Shown here in pieces: positions 6,932 to 57,141 of a stretch of DNA of 64,000 nucleotides. Position 1 is the first letter of the stretch, and each line of letters starts with the position of its first letter. Both the position numbers and the translations under genes were made by a program. The notes beneath the pieces were generated by a model, which saw only the letters and a list, made by a program, of their open reading frames with translations, made no database searches and was not told the origin of the DNA. The stretch is from the NCBI GenBank assembly GCA_028283855.1, contig JAPWJX010000003.1:124001-188000 (forward strand), given 5' to 3'. This DNA is from Verrucomicrobium sp. GTDB taxonomy: Bacteria > Verrucomicrobiota > Verrucomicrobiia > Methylacidiphilales > GAS474.

Positions 6932-8104
6932 ATGCCCTTCGAGCTGCTCAAGACCGACCCCTCCAGCCGCGCGCGGGCGGGAATCCTCCGCACGGAGCAC
7001 GGGGACATCCCCACGCCCGTCTTCATGCCCGTGGGCACGCAGGGGAGCGTGAAGGCCGTCTCCCAGCGCGACCTTTTGGAGATGGACACCCGCATCCTCC
7101 TGGGAAACACCTACCACCTCTTCCTCCGCCCCGGGCTGGAGGCGATGCGCGAATTCGGCGGCCTGCACAAGTTCATGAACTGGCCGCGCCCCATCCTGAC
7201 CGACTCCGGCGGCTTCCAGGTCTTCTCCCTGGCCAAGCTCCGCCGCCTGGCGGAGGACGGCGTCCACTTCCGCTGCCACGTCAGCGGCGCGCCCCACTTC
7301 CTGGGGACGCGGGAGGCCATCGCCATGCAGGTGACGATGGGCAGCGACGTGATGATGGTCCTGGACGAGTGCCCGCCCTGGCCGTGCGAGGCCGGCGCCG
7401 TGCGCGACGCCGTGGAGCGGACCGTCCGCTGGGCGCGCGACTGCAAGGGCCACCACGCCGCGCTCATGGAATCGACCCCGGACCGCCCCACCAAGCGGCA
7501 GAACCTCTTCGGCATCGTGCAGGGCGGCTCCCACGAGGCCTTGCGCCGGGAATGCGCGGAGCGGCTGGTGGAGATCGGCTTCGACGGCTACGCCATCGGC
7601 GGCGTGAGCGTGGGCGAGCCGGAGGACGAGATGATGGCCGCCGTCGAGTACGCCGAGCCCTTCCTCCCCGCCGACAAGCCCCGCTACGCCATGGGTCTGG
7701 GCCAGCCCCACCAGATGATCGAGATGGTGGCGCGCGGCGTCGACATGTTCGACTGCGTGCTGCCCACCCGCATGGCCCGCCACGGCACCGCCTACACGCG
7801 GGGCGGCCAGCTCCACCTGAAGAACTCCGCCTACCGGATGGACCAGGGCCCGCTGGAGGCGGGGTGCGCCTGCTACGCCTGCACCCACTTCACCCGCGCC
7901 TACATCCGCCACCTGCTGCGCGGCCAAGAAATCCTTGGCCTCATGCTGGTCTCCTTGCATAATTCCCATTTCTACCTGGAGCTGCTGCGGGAGGCGCGGG
8001 CAGCCATCCTGGACGGCACGTTCGAGGCCTTCCGCCGCAGCTTCCGGGAAACTTATCGTGTCAAAGGCTTAGCCACCAACGCAGGAACCACCCCCCAATC
8101 ATGA
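6932..8104 (+). CDS. tgt: queuine tRNA-ribosyltransferase
   Basis: 390 aa tRNA-guanine transglycosylase, exchanging the wobble guanine of GUN anticodons for the queuosine precursor preQ1. Visible hallmarks: MPVGTQGSVKAVSQRDL and NTYHLFLRPG near the start, TDSGGFQVFSLAKLR with the substrate-binding loop, GIVQGG, GYAIGGVSVGEP, the nucleophile region VDMFDCVLPTRMARHGT, and the zinc site CACYAC followed by a distant His (C312, C314, C317). Normal length. Its TGA overlaps the yajC ATG. The tgt-yajC-secD-secF order is widely conserved in bacteria. Confidence 0.97.
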   Translation: MPFELLKTDPSSRARAGILRTEHGDIPTPVFMPVGTQGSVKAVSQRDLLEMDTRILLGNTYHLFLRPGLEAMREFGGLHKFMNWPRPILTDSGGFQVFSLAKLRRLAEDGVHFRCHVSGAPHFLGTREAIAMQVTMGSDVMMVLDECPPWPCEAGAVRDAVERTVRWARDCKGHHAALMESTPDRPTKRQNLFGIVQGGSHEALRRECAERLVEIGFDGYAIGGVSVGEPEDEMMAAVEYAEPFLPADKPRYAMGLGQPHQMIEMVARGVDMFDCVLPTRMARHGTAYTRGGQLHLKNSAYRMDQGPLEAGCACYACTHFTRAYIRHLLRGQEILGLMLVSLHNSHFYLELLREARAAILDGTFEAFRRSFRETYRVKGLATNAGTTPQS

Positions 8105-8460
8105 TCCACCTCCCCCTCGCCGAATTTCTCGCCATGGCCCCGCAGCCTCCCGCCGCCGACGGCCAGCCGCCGCAGCCCTTCTGGGTCTCCCTGGTCATGC
8201 CGGGGCTCCTCATCCTCTTCATGTACTTCCTCTTCCTGCGCCCGCAGATGAAGGCCCGCAAGGAGCAGGACAAGATGATCTCCGAGCTGAAGAGCGGCGA
8301 CGAGGTCATCACCCAGAGCGGCATCTACGGCACCATCGCCAACGTGAAGGAAAAGACCTTCGTCGTCCGCATCGCGGAGAACGTGAAGGTGGAGATGCTC
8401 AAGTCGGCCGTCACCTCCGTCTCCAAGCGGGAGAAGGAAAAGGCCGAGGCCGCCGCCTAA
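8101..8460 (+). CDS. yajC: YajC, SecDF-associated membrane protein
   Basis: 119 aa accessory subunit of the Sec translocon. One transmembrane helix (about residues 28-45) leads into the family signature LFLRPQMKARKEQDKMISEL, then KSGDEVITQSGIYGTIANVK with the small beta domain. N-terminus slightly extended and Pro/Gln-rich. ATG overlaps the tgt stop. Lies 25 bases before secDF, with which it is expected to act. Confidence 0.94.
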   Translation: MIHLPLAEFLAMAPQPPAADGQPPQPFWVSLVMPGLLILFMYFLFLRPQMKARKEQDKMISELKSGDEVITQSGIYGTIANVKEKTFVVRIAENVKVEMLKSAVTSVSKREKEKAEAAA

Positions 8461-8485
8461 CCCCGCCAACCTTCCCCCGGGCCCC

Positions 8486-10831
8486 ATGCTCTTCCTCATC
8501 TTCCTCTGCGCGCTGGCCTTCGTCGGATTCCTCGCCTGGTACATCCTGGCGGAGGATCCGGTGGTCCGCCGCCGCGTCGGCCTGTGCTCCATCCTGGCCA
8601 TCGCCGCCGCCAGCGCCCTCTCCCTCTTCCCCGTCTCGGAGAAGATCAAGCTGGGCCTCGACCTCAAGGGCGGCACCGCCTTCCTCATCGCCCTGGACGG
8701 GCAGCCCTCCTCCAGCGCGCGGGAAAAGGCCATGCAGGTCATCCGCAAGCGCGTCGACCAATTCGGCCTCTCGGAACCCATCATCCAGCCCGTCGGCGCC
8801 AACCGCATCAGCGTCCAGATCCCCGGCCTCTCCGAGCAGCAGAAGGCGGAGGCCCGCCAGCAGCTGGCCAAGGTGGCCAAGCTGGAATTCCGCCTCGTCC
8901 ACCCCCGCAGCCGCGAGCTGCTCAACGCCTTCCACTCCGGCGACCCCGCCGCCATCCCGATCGACTACGAGATCCTGCCCTACCTCCAGCACGACCTGCA
9001 GGGGCAGGAGCTGCACACGGAAATCGTGGTCAAGCGCCGCCCGGAAATGTCCGGCAAATACGTCCAGCGCGCCTTCCGCAGCTTCGACGACGTGGGCCGC
9101 GCCACGGTGGTGATCGACTTCACCCCGGAAGGGCAGCAGGCCTTCGGCCGCATCACCTCCAACTGCATCGGCCAGCAGATGGCCATCGTCCTGGACCGGG
9201 AGGTGCAGAGCGCCCCGGAGATCAAGACCGCCATCTTCAACAACGCCGTCATCTCCGGCGGCAACATGACGCCCAAGGAGGCCGACGACCTCTCCAGCGT
9301 CCTGGAAAACCCCCTGGAAACGCCCGTGAAGCTCCTGGAAGAGCGCGGCGTCGACCCCTCCCTGGGACGTGACTCCATCGTCTCCGGCCGCAACGCCAGC
9401 ATCGTGGCCGTCCTTTTGGTCATGGGCTTCATGATCCTCTACTACCGCTGGGCGGGCGTCATCGCCTCCGTCGGCATGGTGCTGAACATCTTCATGCTCC
9501 TGGGCATGCTGGCCCAGTTCCACTTCACCCTGACCCTGCCGGGCATCGCGGGCATCGTCCTGACCATCGGCATGGCGGTGGACGCCAACGTCCTCATCTA
9601 CGAGCGCATCCGCGACGAGCTGGCCCTGGGCAAGAACCTGCGCGCCGCCGTGGCGGCGGGCTTCTCCCGCGCGTTTTCCGCCATCTTCGACGCCCACGTC
9701 ACCGCCATCATCCCGGCCATCATCCTCCTGGTCCTGGGCAGCGGCCCGCTGCAGGGCTTCGCCGTCACCCTCACCCTGGGCATCGTGGCCAACCTCTTCG
9801 CCGCCCTGGTGGTGACGAAGAACGCCTTCGAGTGGCTCCTCTCCATCCGCGGGCTGGAAAAGCTGGCCATGCTCCAGGCCGTGCGCAACCCGCGCCTGGA
9901 CTTCATCAAGATCGGCCGCGTCGCCTCCGTCTTCTCCCTGGCCCTCCTCGTCTGGGGCATCTGCACCTTCGCCGCCCATCGGCACACCCTGCTGGGCGTC
10001 GACTTCGCCGGGGGCGACTCCGTCACCGTCACCAGCACGGAAGTGGTCCCGCCCGCCATCGGCGCCGTGCGCGCCGCCCTGGACCGCGCGGGGCTCCACA
10101 CCGGCACCATCCAGTACGCCGCCGGCATGCAGACCGGCCAGCGCCCGCAGCTCCTGGTCCAGGCCCGCTACGGCGAGGGCGAGCGCGTCGCCCCCGCCCT
10201 GGCCTCCGCCTTTCCCGGCGCGGGCTTCGCGCAGGCGGGCCTAGACCGCGTCGGCCCCGTCATCGGCAAGGAGCTGGGGGAGCGCGCGCTCCTCACCCTG
10301 GGCATCGGCCTTTTGGGCATCATGATCTACGTCGCCTTCCGCTATGAGTGGTCGTTCTCCCTGGCCGCAACCCTGGGCCAGATCCACGACGTGCTCATCG
10401 CCATCGGCGTCATGGCCCTCCTGCACCGGGAATTCAACATGACCTTGATCGGCGCCTTCCTGACCATCCTGGGCTACTCGATCAACGACAAGATCGTCAT
10501 CAGCGACCGCATCCGCGAGTCGTGGCGCGCCGGGGAGTTGAAGAGCTTCTACGACATCGTCAACCGCGGCCTGAACCTGACCCTGGCCCGCACCCTCATC
10601 ACCGGCGGCACCATCCTGCTGGCGGTGCTCTCCCTGCTCTGCTTCGGCGGGCCGGTCATCGCCGACTTCGCCCTGGCCATGCTCATCGGCATCGTGGCGG
10701 GGATCTTCTCCTCCCACTTCCTGACCCCCTGGCTCCTGGAGTGGTTCCACGGCATGGCCTCCCGCCGCCCCCGCCGCGCGGCCCGCAACGGCAGCGGCGC
10801 GGCCCCGACCCTGAACGGCGCCGGCGTCTAG
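8486..10831 (+). CDS. secDF: fused SecDF protein translocase subunit
   Basis: 781 aa fusion of SecD and SecF, the proton-driven subunits that complete protein export at the inner membrane. The SecD half has GLDLKGGTAF (residues 57-66), the P1 periplasmic domain and the helix motif GIVLTIGMAVDANVLIYERI. The SecF half restarts near residue 490 with GVDFAGGDSVTV and has GYSINDKIVISDRIRE as the equivalent late motif. Each half shows the expected six-helix pattern. A single-chain SecDF is the usual state in several phyla. Downstream recJ begins 7 bases later, with a GAAAGG Shine-Dalgarno overlapping the junction. Confidence 0.96.
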   Translation: MLFLIFLCALAFVGFLAWYILAEDPVVRRRVGLCSILAIAAASALSLFPVSEKIKLGLDLKGGTAFLIALDGQPSSSAREKAMQVIRKRVDQFGLSEPIIQPVGANRISVQIPGLSEQQKAEARQQLAKVAKLEFRLVHPRSRELLNAFHSGDPAAIPIDYEILPYLQHDLQGQELHTEIVVKRRPEMSGKYVQRAFRSFDDVGRATVVIDFTPEGQQAFGRITSNCIGQQMAIVLDREVQSAPEIKTAIFNNAVISGGNMTPKEADDLSSVLENPLETPVKLLEERGVDPSLGRDSIVSGRNASIVAVLLVMGFMILYYRWAGVIASVGMVLNIFMLLGMLAQFHFTLTLPGIAGIVLTIGMAVDANVLIYERIRDELALGKNLRAAVAAGFSRAFSAIFDAHVTAIIPAIILLVLGSGPLQGFAVTLTLGIVANLFAALVVTKNAFEWLLSIRGLEKLAMLQAVRNPRLDFIKIGRVASVFSLALLVWGICTFAAHRHTLLGVDFAGGDSVTVTSTEVVPPAIGAVRAALDRAGLHTGTIQYAAGMQTGQRPQLLVQARYGEGERVAPALASAFPGAGFAQAGLDRVGPVIGKELGERALLTLGIGLLGIMIYVAFRYEWSFSLAATLGQIHDVLIAIGVMALLHREFNMTLIGAFLTILGYSINDKIVISDRIRESWRAGELKSFYDIVNRGLNLTLARTLITGGTILLAVLSLLCFGGPVIADFALAMLIGIVAGIFSSHFLTPWLLEWFHGMASRRPRRAARNGSGAAPTLNGAGV

Positions 10832-52681: not shown

Positions 52682-53236
52682 TTAGTGCAGGCGGCCGTTC
52701 CTCTCAATGGCCTTGTGGCCGTTTTCCATCGCCGGGGCGGCGCGCCCGGCGTCCCGGACCGGCTCCAGCTGGATGCGGCGGAGGATCGCCGGCTCGTGCT
52801 TCCTGATGCCCTCGTTGAAATGGTGGAGGGTGGCCACGTCGGCCCCCGTCTCCCGCAGGGCGTTGAGAAAAAGGGTGGAGGGGATCCCCCGCCGCAGCAG
52901 GGTGTCCAGGGCGGTGCGGCTTAGGTTTTCCTTCCGCTCCTCCGCCGCGGCGCGGGCGGCCGGAGTGTCCAGGCGGCCCTCCTGGGCCAGGCGCCGCCGC
53001 TGGTTCTCCAAATGGGCCAGGCTGGAGCGGAAGACGATCGCCCCCGTCTTAAGATCATCGTAGAGAGGGCCTTCCGGCGAGGGGTGGCGCTGCTGCTTTT
53101 CCTGGTGGATGCGCGCCATGGTGGCGATGGAGCTGAGGCTGGGCCGGTCGGTCTCCGGGGCCGGGCTGGCCTTGGCCGCCGCCTCCTGAAGGACGCCGGA
53201 AAGGTCGATCCGAGTCTGAGAATCGGGCTTCGCCAT
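52682..53236 (-). CDS. unrecognised soluble protein, 184 aa
   Basis: No family recognised. Helical, rich in Arg, Ala, Glu and Leu, with segments SLAHLENQRRRLAQEGRLDT and LDTLLRRGIPSTLFLNALRE. No signal peptide or membrane helix. ATG at 53236 (MAKPDSQTRIDLSGVLQEAA) preferred over an upstream in-frame start at 53296. Resembles the other orphan soluble proteins of this window in composition only. Confidence 0.55.
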   Translation of the reverse strand: MAKPDSQTRIDLSGVLQEAAAKASPAPETDRPSLSSIATMARIHQEKQQRHPSPEGPLYDDLKTGAIVFRSSLAHLENQRRRLAQEGRLDTPAARAAAEERKENLSRTALDTLLRRGIPSTLFLNALRETGADVATLHHFNEGIRKHEPAILRRIQLEPVRDAGRAAPAMENGHKAIERNGRLH

Positions 53237-53384
53237 GGCTGCCCCAAATAGAGCAAAAGACAGGCCAACCGCACCCTCCGGAGCGATCATTTCCATCGGC
53301 CCGCTGGCATATTTATTGCTTACGGCCTCTTTCCTTTTCCAAAGACGGCCTCTTTTCTAAAACACACCCACGGGCACCCAGGGC

Positions 53385-55277
53385 ATGCAACACTTTCCCC
53401 CCTTCCAACCGCTTACCTACGAGTTGCTGGAAGGCGCCGATTTCAGCAAGCCCCGCACGGTCAAAAAAATCCTGGGGGACCTGCACGCCCGGCTTAAGAA
53501 GGTCAAAACCCGGGAGGACCTGGTGTCCTGGCTCCAGCTGCATGACGAGGTCCAGGACGCGGCGTGGGAGCAGTCGATCGAACTGGAGATCGAGCACACC
53601 GCCGACACAAAGAACAAGGCGGTCAAGGACGCCTACAACCATCAGATTTCCAAAGTCGACCCGGTGTGGGAGGAAGCCTACTACCCCATCCTGGTCCGCC
53701 TGAGCCGGAAGACGGCCTTCAAAGAGCTGCCCAAGGAATACAACCTCTTCCGCCAGACCATCTACTCCATGCTGCGGGGCTCCACGGCGAAAAACTCCGC
53801 CCTGCAGGGCAAGGAAACCCGCCTGGCCGGGGAATACGACGACGTGGTGACCCAGCTGACCGTCTCCGTCGACGGGGAAAAGGTCACCCCCCACCGCCTG
53901 CGGCATCTGCTGGAAGGGTCCGACCGCCGGAAGCGCCAGGAAGCCTGGGAAAAGGAACAGGCGATCCGCCTGGCCCATCGCGGACAGTTCGACGAGATTT
54001 TCCGCCGCCAGGTCGATCTGCGCCAACAGCAGGCGCAGAACGCCCGCTTCACCTTCCACCAGGAAGACGGCCGCAAGGCGGGAGACTACCTCCGCTTCAA
54101 CTTTTCGGAGAAAGAGGCCCGCTACACGCCGGAGGACATCGAGACGCTCCACCAGGCCATCGCGGACTACATGGTCCCCTTCGTCCGGTCCTACCAGGAA
54201 GACCGGCGCAAGCGGCTCGTCGCCGACGGGCAGCTGCGCCCCCGCGAGAAAATGCGCCCCTGGGACATGACGGCCGAGCCGGGCACACGGACCCCGCTGC
54301 AGCCCTTCCTGGACGAGCGCGATTTCAACAAGAAGCTCGTGGCCCTGGCCCACGCCATCGACCCCCGGCTGACCCCGCCGGTGACCGAGGCGATCCTCGA
54401 CGGCCGCCTCGACATCGGCGACCGCAAGGGGAAGACCGCCTGTTACGGCTTCTGCCAAGTCCTCCCCCTTTCCCGCCTTTACTTCGCCTGCGTCAACAAC
54501 ACCCTCTCCCAGGAAGGCCTGGGCACCGCCGTCCACGAGATCCTGGGACACGGCAGCCACGCCCACTTTTTCAACCAAAAGCAGCGCTTCGGCCCCTACC
54601 GCAACCCCGGCGGCATGGAAGTCGCCGAGCTGGCCTCCATGAGCATGGAGCTGATGGCCACGCAGCACATGGACGTCGTCTACCGGGACCCCGTGGACCA
54701 ATGCCGCGCCCAGCGGCACATGATCGAGGGCTTCTTCGGCTACGTCGTGGAGACGGCCGCCACCGACGCCTTCCAGCACTGGGTCTACCGCCACCCCCAA
54801 AGCAGCCAGGAAGAGCAGGACGCCGCGTGGCTGGAACAGATGGACCGCTTTGGCGGCATCGAGAACTGGCAGGGCCATGAGGAAACCCGCCAGGGCTGGT
54901 GGCAGCGGAAAGCCCACCTCTTCAACATGCCCCTCTACGCCGAATACCTGCCCGCGGCAGTCGGCGCGCTGCAAATGTGGAGCCACTACCTTCAGGACCC
55001 CACCGGCACCGTCGACCGCTTCATCCGCTTCACCGAGGCGGGCGGCTCCCGCACCCCCGACAAGCTCTACCACCTGGCCGGCATCCGCTACGATCCCAAG
55101 GGGAAGACCCTGGCCGATTCCATGGCGGAGATGGAAAAATTCTACACCCGCCTCCGCATGAAGGAGACGGCGCTGGAGCACGAAAAGGAGCAGCCCGCCC
55201 GGGACCTCGGCGGCCTGGTCCGCCCCGTCCCCATCCCCTCCCTTTCCCTGCCCCGGCAAAGAAGCCGCTCCCGGTAG
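53385..55277 (+). CDS. M3-like metallopeptidase with HEILGH motif
   Basis: 630 aa helical zincin related to oligoendopeptidases of family M3. The active site reads TAVHEILGHGSHAHFF: H384-E385-I-L-G-H389, an HExxxH rather than the HExxH expected in M3. The extra residue matches family M49 (dipeptidyl peptidase III, HELLGHGSG). The second Glu region is MEVAELASMSMEL. The DAFQHWVYRHPQ and NMPLYAEYLPAAVGALQMWS segments align with the neighbouring gene, a normal M3 paralogue. Peptide hydrolysis is likely but the altered motif leaves activity uncertain. C-terminus is Pro/Ser/Arg-rich. Confidence 0.7.
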   Translation: MQHFPPFQPLTYELLEGADFSKPRTVKKILGDLHARLKKVKTREDLVSWLQLHDEVQDAAWEQSIELEIEHTADTKNKAVKDAYNHQISKVDPVWEEAYYPILVRLSRKTAFKELPKEYNLFRQTIYSMLRGSTAKNSALQGKETRLAGEYDDVVTQLTVSVDGEKVTPHRLRHLLEGSDRRKRQEAWEKEQAIRLAHRGQFDEIFRRQVDLRQQQAQNARFTFHQEDGRKAGDYLRFNFSEKEARYTPEDIETLHQAIADYMVPFVRSYQEDRRKRLVADGQLRPREKMRPWDMTAEPGTRTPLQPFLDERDFNKKLVALAHAIDPRLTPPVTEAILDGRLDIGDRKGKTACYGFCQVLPLSRLYFACVNNTLSQEGLGTAVHEILGHGSHAHFFNQKQRFGPYRNPGGMEVAELASMSMELMATQHMDVVYRDPVDQCRAQRHMIEGFFGYVVETAATDAFQHWVYRHPQSSQEEQDAAWLEQMDRFGGIENWQGHEETRQGWWQRKAHLFNMPLYAEYLPAAVGALQMWSHYLQDPTGTVDRFIRFTEAGGSRTPDKLYHLAGIRYDPKGKTLADSMAEMEKFYTRLRMKETALEHEKEQPARDLGGLVRPVPIPSLSLPRQRSRSR

Positions 55278-55365: not shown

Positions 55366-57141
55366 ATGAAGACGTCGCCCTATCGCCGCCGCGCCTTTTT
55401 GCCGGAAAAGGCCGACCTTGCCGACCTCATGGTCCTGGACGACCTCTACCGCCGCCTGCGCGCCGGCCTCCGCGCGGCGCCGGACGCGCCCGCGCTGGAG
55501 AAGTGGCTCGACGACTACGGCGAGCTTTTGGCCGCCCTGAGCCAGGAGCGGGAGCGGCGCTACATCGCCCACTCGCTGCAAAAGGACGACGTCGACCTCC
55601 AAAGCGCTTACGACCACTTCGCGGAGGTCGTCGCCCCCTGGTGCGAGCCGCGCGACGTGGAGCTGGAGCGGCTCCTGGAGGCCCACCCCGCCTTCGCCGC
55701 CCTGCCGGATTACTACGAGGCCTACCGCCGGAGCATCCGCGCCGACACTGCCCTCTTCCGCCCCGCCAACCTCCGCCGCCTGGTGGAGGAGGAGCACCTG
55801 CGGAACGAATACGACGTCCTTTACTCCGGCCTTTCCGCCCCCTTCGAAGGGCGGGAGCGGACGGCGCCGGAGATCGAGGCCTTCCTGGAAAACCCCGACC
55901 GCGCCCGGCGGGAAAAGGCCTGGCGGACGGCGCAGGCGCTCTTCGCCGGCCAGGCGGAGACGCTCCACGCGCTCTATTCCCGGCAGGTCGCCCTGCGCCA
56001 CCAGATCGCGCGGGAGGCGGACTTCGACGACTACCGGGGCTACTTCTTCGCCGCCATGGGCCGCGCCTACGGGCCGGAGGACTGCCTGCGGCTGCACGGG
56101 GCGGTGGAGCGGCAGGTCGTCCCCCTGCTGCGCCGCCTCAACGAGGCGCGCCGCCGCGCCCTGGGCGTGGAGACGCTGCGGCCCTGGGACCTGGCGGCCG
56201 ATCCCTTTAGCCGCCCGCCGCTGCGGCCTTTCCGCACCGTCGCGGAGCTTTTGGACAAGACGGAGGCCTCCTTCGCCGCGCTCCACCCGCAGCTCGGCGC
56301 GCAGTTCCGCAAGCTGCGGGACCTGGAGCTGCTCGACCTGGAAACGCGCGCGGAAAAGGCCCCCGGCGGCTACAGCGCCGACCTGGCGGAGGCGCGCCTG
56401 CCCTACAGCTTCGCCAACGTCGGCGGCAGCCACTACGACGTGGTCGTCCTTCAGCACGAGGCCGGGCACGCCTTCCACACCCTGGCCTGCCGCGAGCAGC
56501 GGCTCTACGATTACCGGGCCAACATCCCCCTGGAATTCTGCGAGGTGGCCTCCGCCGCCATGGAACACCTGGGCGCGGCGCAATACGGCCGGTTCTACGG
56601 GGAGGCCGACGCGCGCCGCGCCGCCCGGCAGCTGTTGGAGGACGCCCTGGCCTCCCTCCCCGCCATCGCCGCGGTCGACGCCTTCCAACACTGGGCCTAC
56701 GCCCACCCGGACGCCGCGCCCGCCGAGCGGGACGCGCAGTGGGGCGCGCTCTGCGCCCGCTTCAACCCCGGGGTCGATTGGAGCGGGCTGGAAAGCTTCC
56801 GGGACGCCTCCTGGCACCAGATCTCCCACTTCTTCGACGCGCCGCTCTACTACATCGAATACGCCGTCGCCCGCCTCGGCGCGCTCCAGGTCTGGAGCCG
56901 CGCCCGCCGGGAACCGGAGGCCGCGATCGACGATCTCCTGGCCGCCCTGGAGCTGGGCGGCTCCGTCCCCCTGCCCGGCCTTTTCGAGACCGCGGGCCTG
57001 CGCCTTAGCTTCGGGGAGGAGGCGCTGGCGCCCCTCGTCGCGGAGGCGGCCGCGGAGCTGGACCGGCTGGCCGACGCGCCCGCCGAGGCCGCCGGCAACC
57101 CCGCCGCCCTTTCCCACCCCTGCCTGCCCCAGGCGGCTTGA
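55366..57141 (+). CDS. M3 family oligoendopeptidase
   Basis: 591 aa cytoplasmic zinc peptidase. HEAGHAFHTLACREQ (H364, E365, H368) is the classic HExGH active site, with the third ligand Glu in NIPLEFCEVASAAMEHLG. DAFQHWAYAHPDAAP and FDAPLYYIEYAVARLGALQV match the upstream paralogue and PepF-like enzymes. Degrades short peptides. ATG at 55366 preferred over 55324. Tandem with the HEILGH paralogue, suggesting gene duplication followed by divergence of the first copy. Confidence 0.85.
   Translation: MKTSPYRRRAFLPEKADLADLMVLDDLYRRLRAGLRAAPDAPALEKWLDDYGELLAALSQERERRYIAHSLQKDDVDLQSAYDHFAEVVAPWCEPRDVELERLLEAHPAFAALPDYYEAYRRSIRADTALFRPANLRRLVEEEHLRNEYDVLYSGLSAPFEGRERTAPEIEAFLENPDRARREKAWRTAQALFAGQAETLHALYSRQVALRHQIAREADFDDYRGYFFAAMGRAYGPEDCLRLHGAVERQVVPLLRRLNEARRRALGVETLRPWDLAADPFSRPPLRPFRTVAELLDKTEASFAALHPQLGAQFRKLRDLELLDLETRAEKAPGGYSADLAEARLPYSFANVGGSHYDVVVLQHEAGHAFHTLACREQRLYDYRANIPLEFCEVASAAMEHLGAAQYGRFYGEADARRAARQLLEDALASLPAIAAVDAFQHWAYAHPDAAPAERDAQWGALCARFNPGVDWSGLESFRDASWHQISHFFDAPLYYIEYAVARLGALQVWSRARREPEAAIDDLLAALELGGSVPLPGLFETAGLRLSFGEEALAPLVAEAAAELDRLADAPAEAAGNPAALSHPCLPQAA

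Follow-up and report, generated by a model that had tools for sequence, protein, structure and literature searches.

To our knowledge, M3 peptidases are taken to have an invariant HExxH zinc motif, on which both profiles and annotators depend. The motif with one additional residue, HExxxH, is found in enzymes outside this family. In DPP III, 52 residues separate the motif from the third ligand, the motif helix forms a five-residue turn, deleting one residue from HELLGH to give HExxH leaves an active enzyme that binds metal in the same way, and the copper-substituted enzyme keeps its activity only with HExxxH (PMC3268031). In TldD, of the TldD/E protease, the extra residue fits within one helical turn (PMC5810440), and TMCP1 and TMCP2 (KIAA0895L and KIAA0895) are gluzincins with HExxxH (PMC10499314). 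A search of open-access papers returned no report of HExxxH in an M3 peptidase; combining oligoendopeptidase with HExxxH retrieved only a review on the metals of DPP III, in another context.

The window, which is the whole 64,000-nucleotide stretch of DNA analysed here, contains on its + strand an M3-type peptidase gene with such an HExxxH motif (53385..55277; ATG start, no internal stops, 630 aa), identified by its ORF, its translation and a Pfam Peptidase_M3 match. The motif, HEILGH, occupies residues 384-389 (54534..54551, + strand) and is directly followed by GSHAHFF, and reading the translation back agreed with the original prediction on both. In the alignment with 32 relatives, the motif contains one inserted column, and the extra residue is Leu387. 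The next gene, used as a control, is a tandem canonical M3 peptidase (55366..57141, + strand; translation, Pfam and NCBIfam) that starts 88 bases after the window gene in the same direction and carries HEAGH, and the two translations show that the window motif is indeed one residue longer. The flanks said to be common to both proteins (DAFQHW, PLY..EY, GALQ.W) were recovered in a 578-column alignment with 30% identity (E 7e-66). An alternative zinc site would have spoken against HEILGH as the motif, and we searched the whole window protein for HExxH and found none besides the HEILGH variant, which leaves HEILGH as the only candidate zinc motif. On the other side, the window gene adjoins a gene for a 204-aa protein (52682-53296, - strand) without a Pfam match at E 0.01.

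A second HExxxH gene lies on another contig of the source genome (G000:C4:173079-174950). Its product shares 48% identity with the window protein and has the motif HEGLGH, where the sequence reads HEGLGHGSHAYF. The identity of the two proteins is 50/82 at residues 343-424, around the active site, versus 21/90 at residues 61-150. The pairwise dN/dS of the two genes is not low (0.45/0.65, NG86), with dS being unreliable at their 89-91% GC3. The paralogue gene also shares one base (TGATG) with the start of a gene encoding an Rce1-like CPBP intramembrane protease (L099:7223-8077 and 8077-9951, in G000:C4), which suggests co-expression or translational coupling of the two peptidases at that locus; this overlap is absent at the window locus.

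Peptidase_M3 (PF01432) is the only Pfam family that matches the window protein at a maximum E of 10, and its score of 59.2 bits against a cut-off of 27 places the protein among the homologues of M3. The best NCBIfam match is TIGR02289 (M3_not_pepF) with 287 bits, below the cut-off of 442, which the neighbour also does not reach (414). Among solved structures, sequence searches, including one with a profile of the HExxxH pair, placed entries for oligoendopeptidase F and Pz peptidase nearest. The AlphaFold model of the window protein is of moderate quality (pLDDT 73, pTM 0.78; built from 10 sequences only), and its fold is closest to Pz peptidase A (3ahm, TM 0.78), with ACE-type proteins next; the fold matches at E 0.001 or better are M3B and then ACE-type entries only. 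A model of the neighbour built from these sequences reached a pLDDT of 82, had the same top fold match and resolves the strands that correspond to segment 345-371 of the window protein, an edge strand with a pLDDT <50. The window protein is homologous over nearly its full length to M3B (Pz peptidase A 3ahm, oligoendopeptidase F, TIGR02289) and has the same catalytic His, Glu and Tyr set and third-ligand position, but it differs from M3B in having HExxxH instead of HExxH, an edge strand longer by one residue, a Tyr loop shorter by one residue, and three new Cys residues. Because it has HEILGH in place of HExxH despite its M3 homology, we assign it to a divergent clade descended from M3 and do not count it as an ordinary M3 enzyme.

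The remaining predicted catalytic residues are located where an M3 peptidase has them. Glu415 (AELAS; 54627..54629, + strand) occupies the alignment column in which every relative has the E of CEVAS and is the putative third zinc ligand; it lies 26 positions past His389, so that 25 residues separate it from the motif, matching the M3 spacing of ~25. Downstream, the alignment points to His511, Tyr518 and Tyr521 (54915..54947, + strand), which, from what is known of thimet oligopeptidase, we take to be the transition-state residues. Both HExxxH proteins keep the whole predicted catalytic set: His384, Glu385, His389, Glu415, His511, Tyr518 and Tyr521.

We consider it likely that the window protein is an active cytoplasmic zinc oligopeptidase that descends from M3B and has a bulged motif helix, longer by one residue. 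His384 and His389 together with Glu415 would bind zinc, Glu385 would activate water, and His511, Tyr518 and Tyr521 would stabilise the transition state in an M3-like manner. By analogy with DPP III and TldD, the extra residue may be absorbed as a widened five-residue helix turn; such a bulged helix, likely in the pair as in DPP III, would shift Glu385 but still let both His residues reach the metal. The edge strand with CYGFC (+1) and the Tyr loop (-1) would be re-fitted around it by matching length changes. The protein would most likely cleave short peptides, which are the likely substrates given the M3 cage fold, with a specificity unlike that of the canonical M3 copies of the same cell. Inspection by eye shows no evident signal peptide in the window protein. 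An active enzyme is supported by the M3 homology together with the modelled fold, by the seven predicted M3 catalytic residues kept in both proteins despite a stem of ~2 changes per site, by the insertion being kept in two 48%-identical paralogues with higher identity around the active site, and by the zinc chemistry that HExxxH supports in DPP III, TldD and TMCP1/TMCP2. The same interpretation is weakened by the moderate model, the low pLDDT (<50) of edge strand 345-371, and a dN/dS that is not low.

The motif is not the only change around the active site. The original prediction listed the motif correctly but missed the shortened Tyr loop and the CYGFC insertion, both of which are common to the paralogue. 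In the alignment, the pair has three single-residue length changes near the active site: the insertions of Tyr354 and Leu387, and the loss of one residue before Tyr518. Tyr354 lies in CYGFC (residues 353-357; 54441..54455, + strand), a segment with pair-specific columns and a pLDDT <50, which reads KTxCYGFC in the pair versus KAPG-GYQ in the relatives. Of its two Cys residues, Cys353 is new and Cys357 is conserved in the pair, with a Cys at this position also in one canonical relative. A further Cys, Cys369 (FxCVNN; 54489..54491, + strand), aligns with a position that is Phe in 31/32 relatives; both Cys353 and Cys369 occur in the two pair members and in 0/32 relatives. In addition, Gly390 replaces Ala in both members, and the Tyr loop is one residue shorter, with PL-YAEY and PL-YSEY versus the PFYYVEY of the relatives, or PLYAEY versus PLYYIEY.

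These changes could also mean that the zinc site did not survive the insertion, and that the pair persists as inactive or regulatory paralogues that serve as binding or scaffold proteins. The changing of several active-site elements together on a long stem fits such a loss, as does the poorly modelled edge strand. However, the seven catalytic residues are identical in two proteins that are only 48% alike, and HExxxH is functional in other enzymes, and we therefore regard an inactive pair as unlikely, although it is the foremost of the alternatives. A more far-reaching possibility, which we consider quite doubtful, is that the pair founds an M3-derived subfamily of its own, with the whole active site rebuilt around HExxxH, a second metal or redox control supplied by a three-Cys cluster beside it, and a new activity such as dipeptide removal. 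The Cys residues might otherwise act within an active enzyme of altered chemistry or regulation, with Cys353, Cys357 and Cys369 binding a second metal or forming a redox switch and with a metal preference unlike that of M3. All three are common to the pair, two of them (353 and 369) are missing from all 32 relatives, and copper-substituted DPP III is active only with HExxxH (PMC3268031), but the model has no structural confidence in this region and the Cys at position 357 also occurs in a canonical relative, making this improbable.

The original prediction described an M3-type scaffold that appeared to have acquired an M49-like motif. The first half of this claim agrees with the sequence, the profile, the fold and the second gene, all of which indicate an M3 scaffold with HExxxH, while the acquisition of an M49 element gives way to a one-residue insertion within M3. 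Both HEILGH and HEGLGH have the HExxxH form of M49, and the pair shares HExLGHGS with DPP III. Compared with DPP III, however, the window protein has no sequence or fold match and has 25 instead of ~52 residues to the third ligand, and it lacks both EECRAE, the third-ligand motif ~52 residues downstream in M49, and the M49 fold. Neither HExxxH protein matched Pfam M49 (PF03571) at a maximum E of 10, no M49 gene was found in the source genome, and no M49 structure is among the 50 fold matches listed for the window model. Given the absence of an M49 gene and of an M49 profile match and the third ligand at M3 distance, we read the likeness to HELLGHGSG of M49 as local and convergent, apparently produced by a one-residue insertion. 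Recombination of an M49 segment into an M3 gene would account for the local likeness in HExLGHGS, but it is highly improbable in a genome without M49, for proteins without an M49 profile match, and with motif flanks that align to M3 without a break. The other HExxxH enzymes are more distant: TldD has an unrelated fold and a Cys as its third ligand, and TMCP1 and TMCP2 are eukaryotic, have an EEG third-ligand motif and are not M3.

The variant is rare among relatives. The motif could be read in 106 distinct M3 proteins, of which 104 have HExGH and 2 have HExxxH, and the other four M3 genes of the source genome all have HExGH, as does the single M3 gene of a complete genome of the same genus (G002; HEAGH). 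The pair profile was run against genomes of the order (62), the class (384) and the phylum (388), sets that overlap and have handles up to G645. It gave the pair 1322 and 1276 bits, the next protein of their own genome 426 and proteins of other genomes no more than 412; the class and phylum searches scored up to three candidates per genome, and a weaker extra copy could escape. Among the 384 class genomes, the DNA pattern for HExxLGHG[S/T]HA occurred in the source genome only. One DNA-pattern match, L075, falls within a phage-type contig, not inside an M3 gene, and was rejected as chance. Scanning the contig collection with the single window protein gave no relative, and scanning it with the pair profile gave eight Bacteroidota relatives, all with HEGGH. 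The viral-contig scans gave no relative of the pair, and the plasmid collection gave distant M3 matches only, at about 25% identity or less. The HExxxH pair is so far confined to one genome, with other phyla covered just by the two contig-collection scans of limited sensitivity.

HExGH in close relatives had been proposed as a sign of sequence error, and such relatives do exist in other genomes, but the nearest homologue carries the extra residue too. A sequence or assembly error or a frameshift behind HEILGH has a negligible probability, because the same insertion is found at two separate loci on different contigs, which rules out a local sequencing error, and the neighbour and the relatives align as homologues in this frame before and after the motif, in line with the original claim that it is not a frameshift. 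As judged from the two genes, HExxxH in an M3 scaffold looks like a real, rare variant.

The source genome contains six M3 genes, against one seen in most relatives. The searches returned seven M3 matches for these six genes, since the copy on contig C1 falls in an overlap of contig ends, in which the end of C4 and the start of C1 share 2.8 kb at 98.9% identity (L100:9982-12778; L101:1-2796); the two contigs are probably neighbours or strain variants. Three of the M3 genes are in tandem at G000:C4:231954-237351 (L100:5955-11352), and the third reads HEGGHDQQ, having lost the usual His of GHxxH. The HExxxH proteins form a clade with 100/100 support on a stem of ~2 changes per site in both trees. 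The trees disagree on whether the pair came from expansion within the genome or from lateral gain; a single expansion of all six genes appears in 63% of bootstraps in one tree and has an AU p of 0.28 in the other. The GC3 of the pair (0.89 and 0.91) is close to that of the genome neighbours (0.92-0.95) and thus gives no sign of recent transfer. The HExxxH of the pair seems to have an origin separate from that of the other known enzymes with this motif.

The pair shows that the M3 motif can gain one residue inside an otherwise intact site, and it provides an independent case of the rare HExxxH solution in a second lineage of clan MA. The canonical copies in the same cell offer a natural comparison for metal tolerance, base position and specificity. 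Motif scans based on HExxH would overlook such enzymes.
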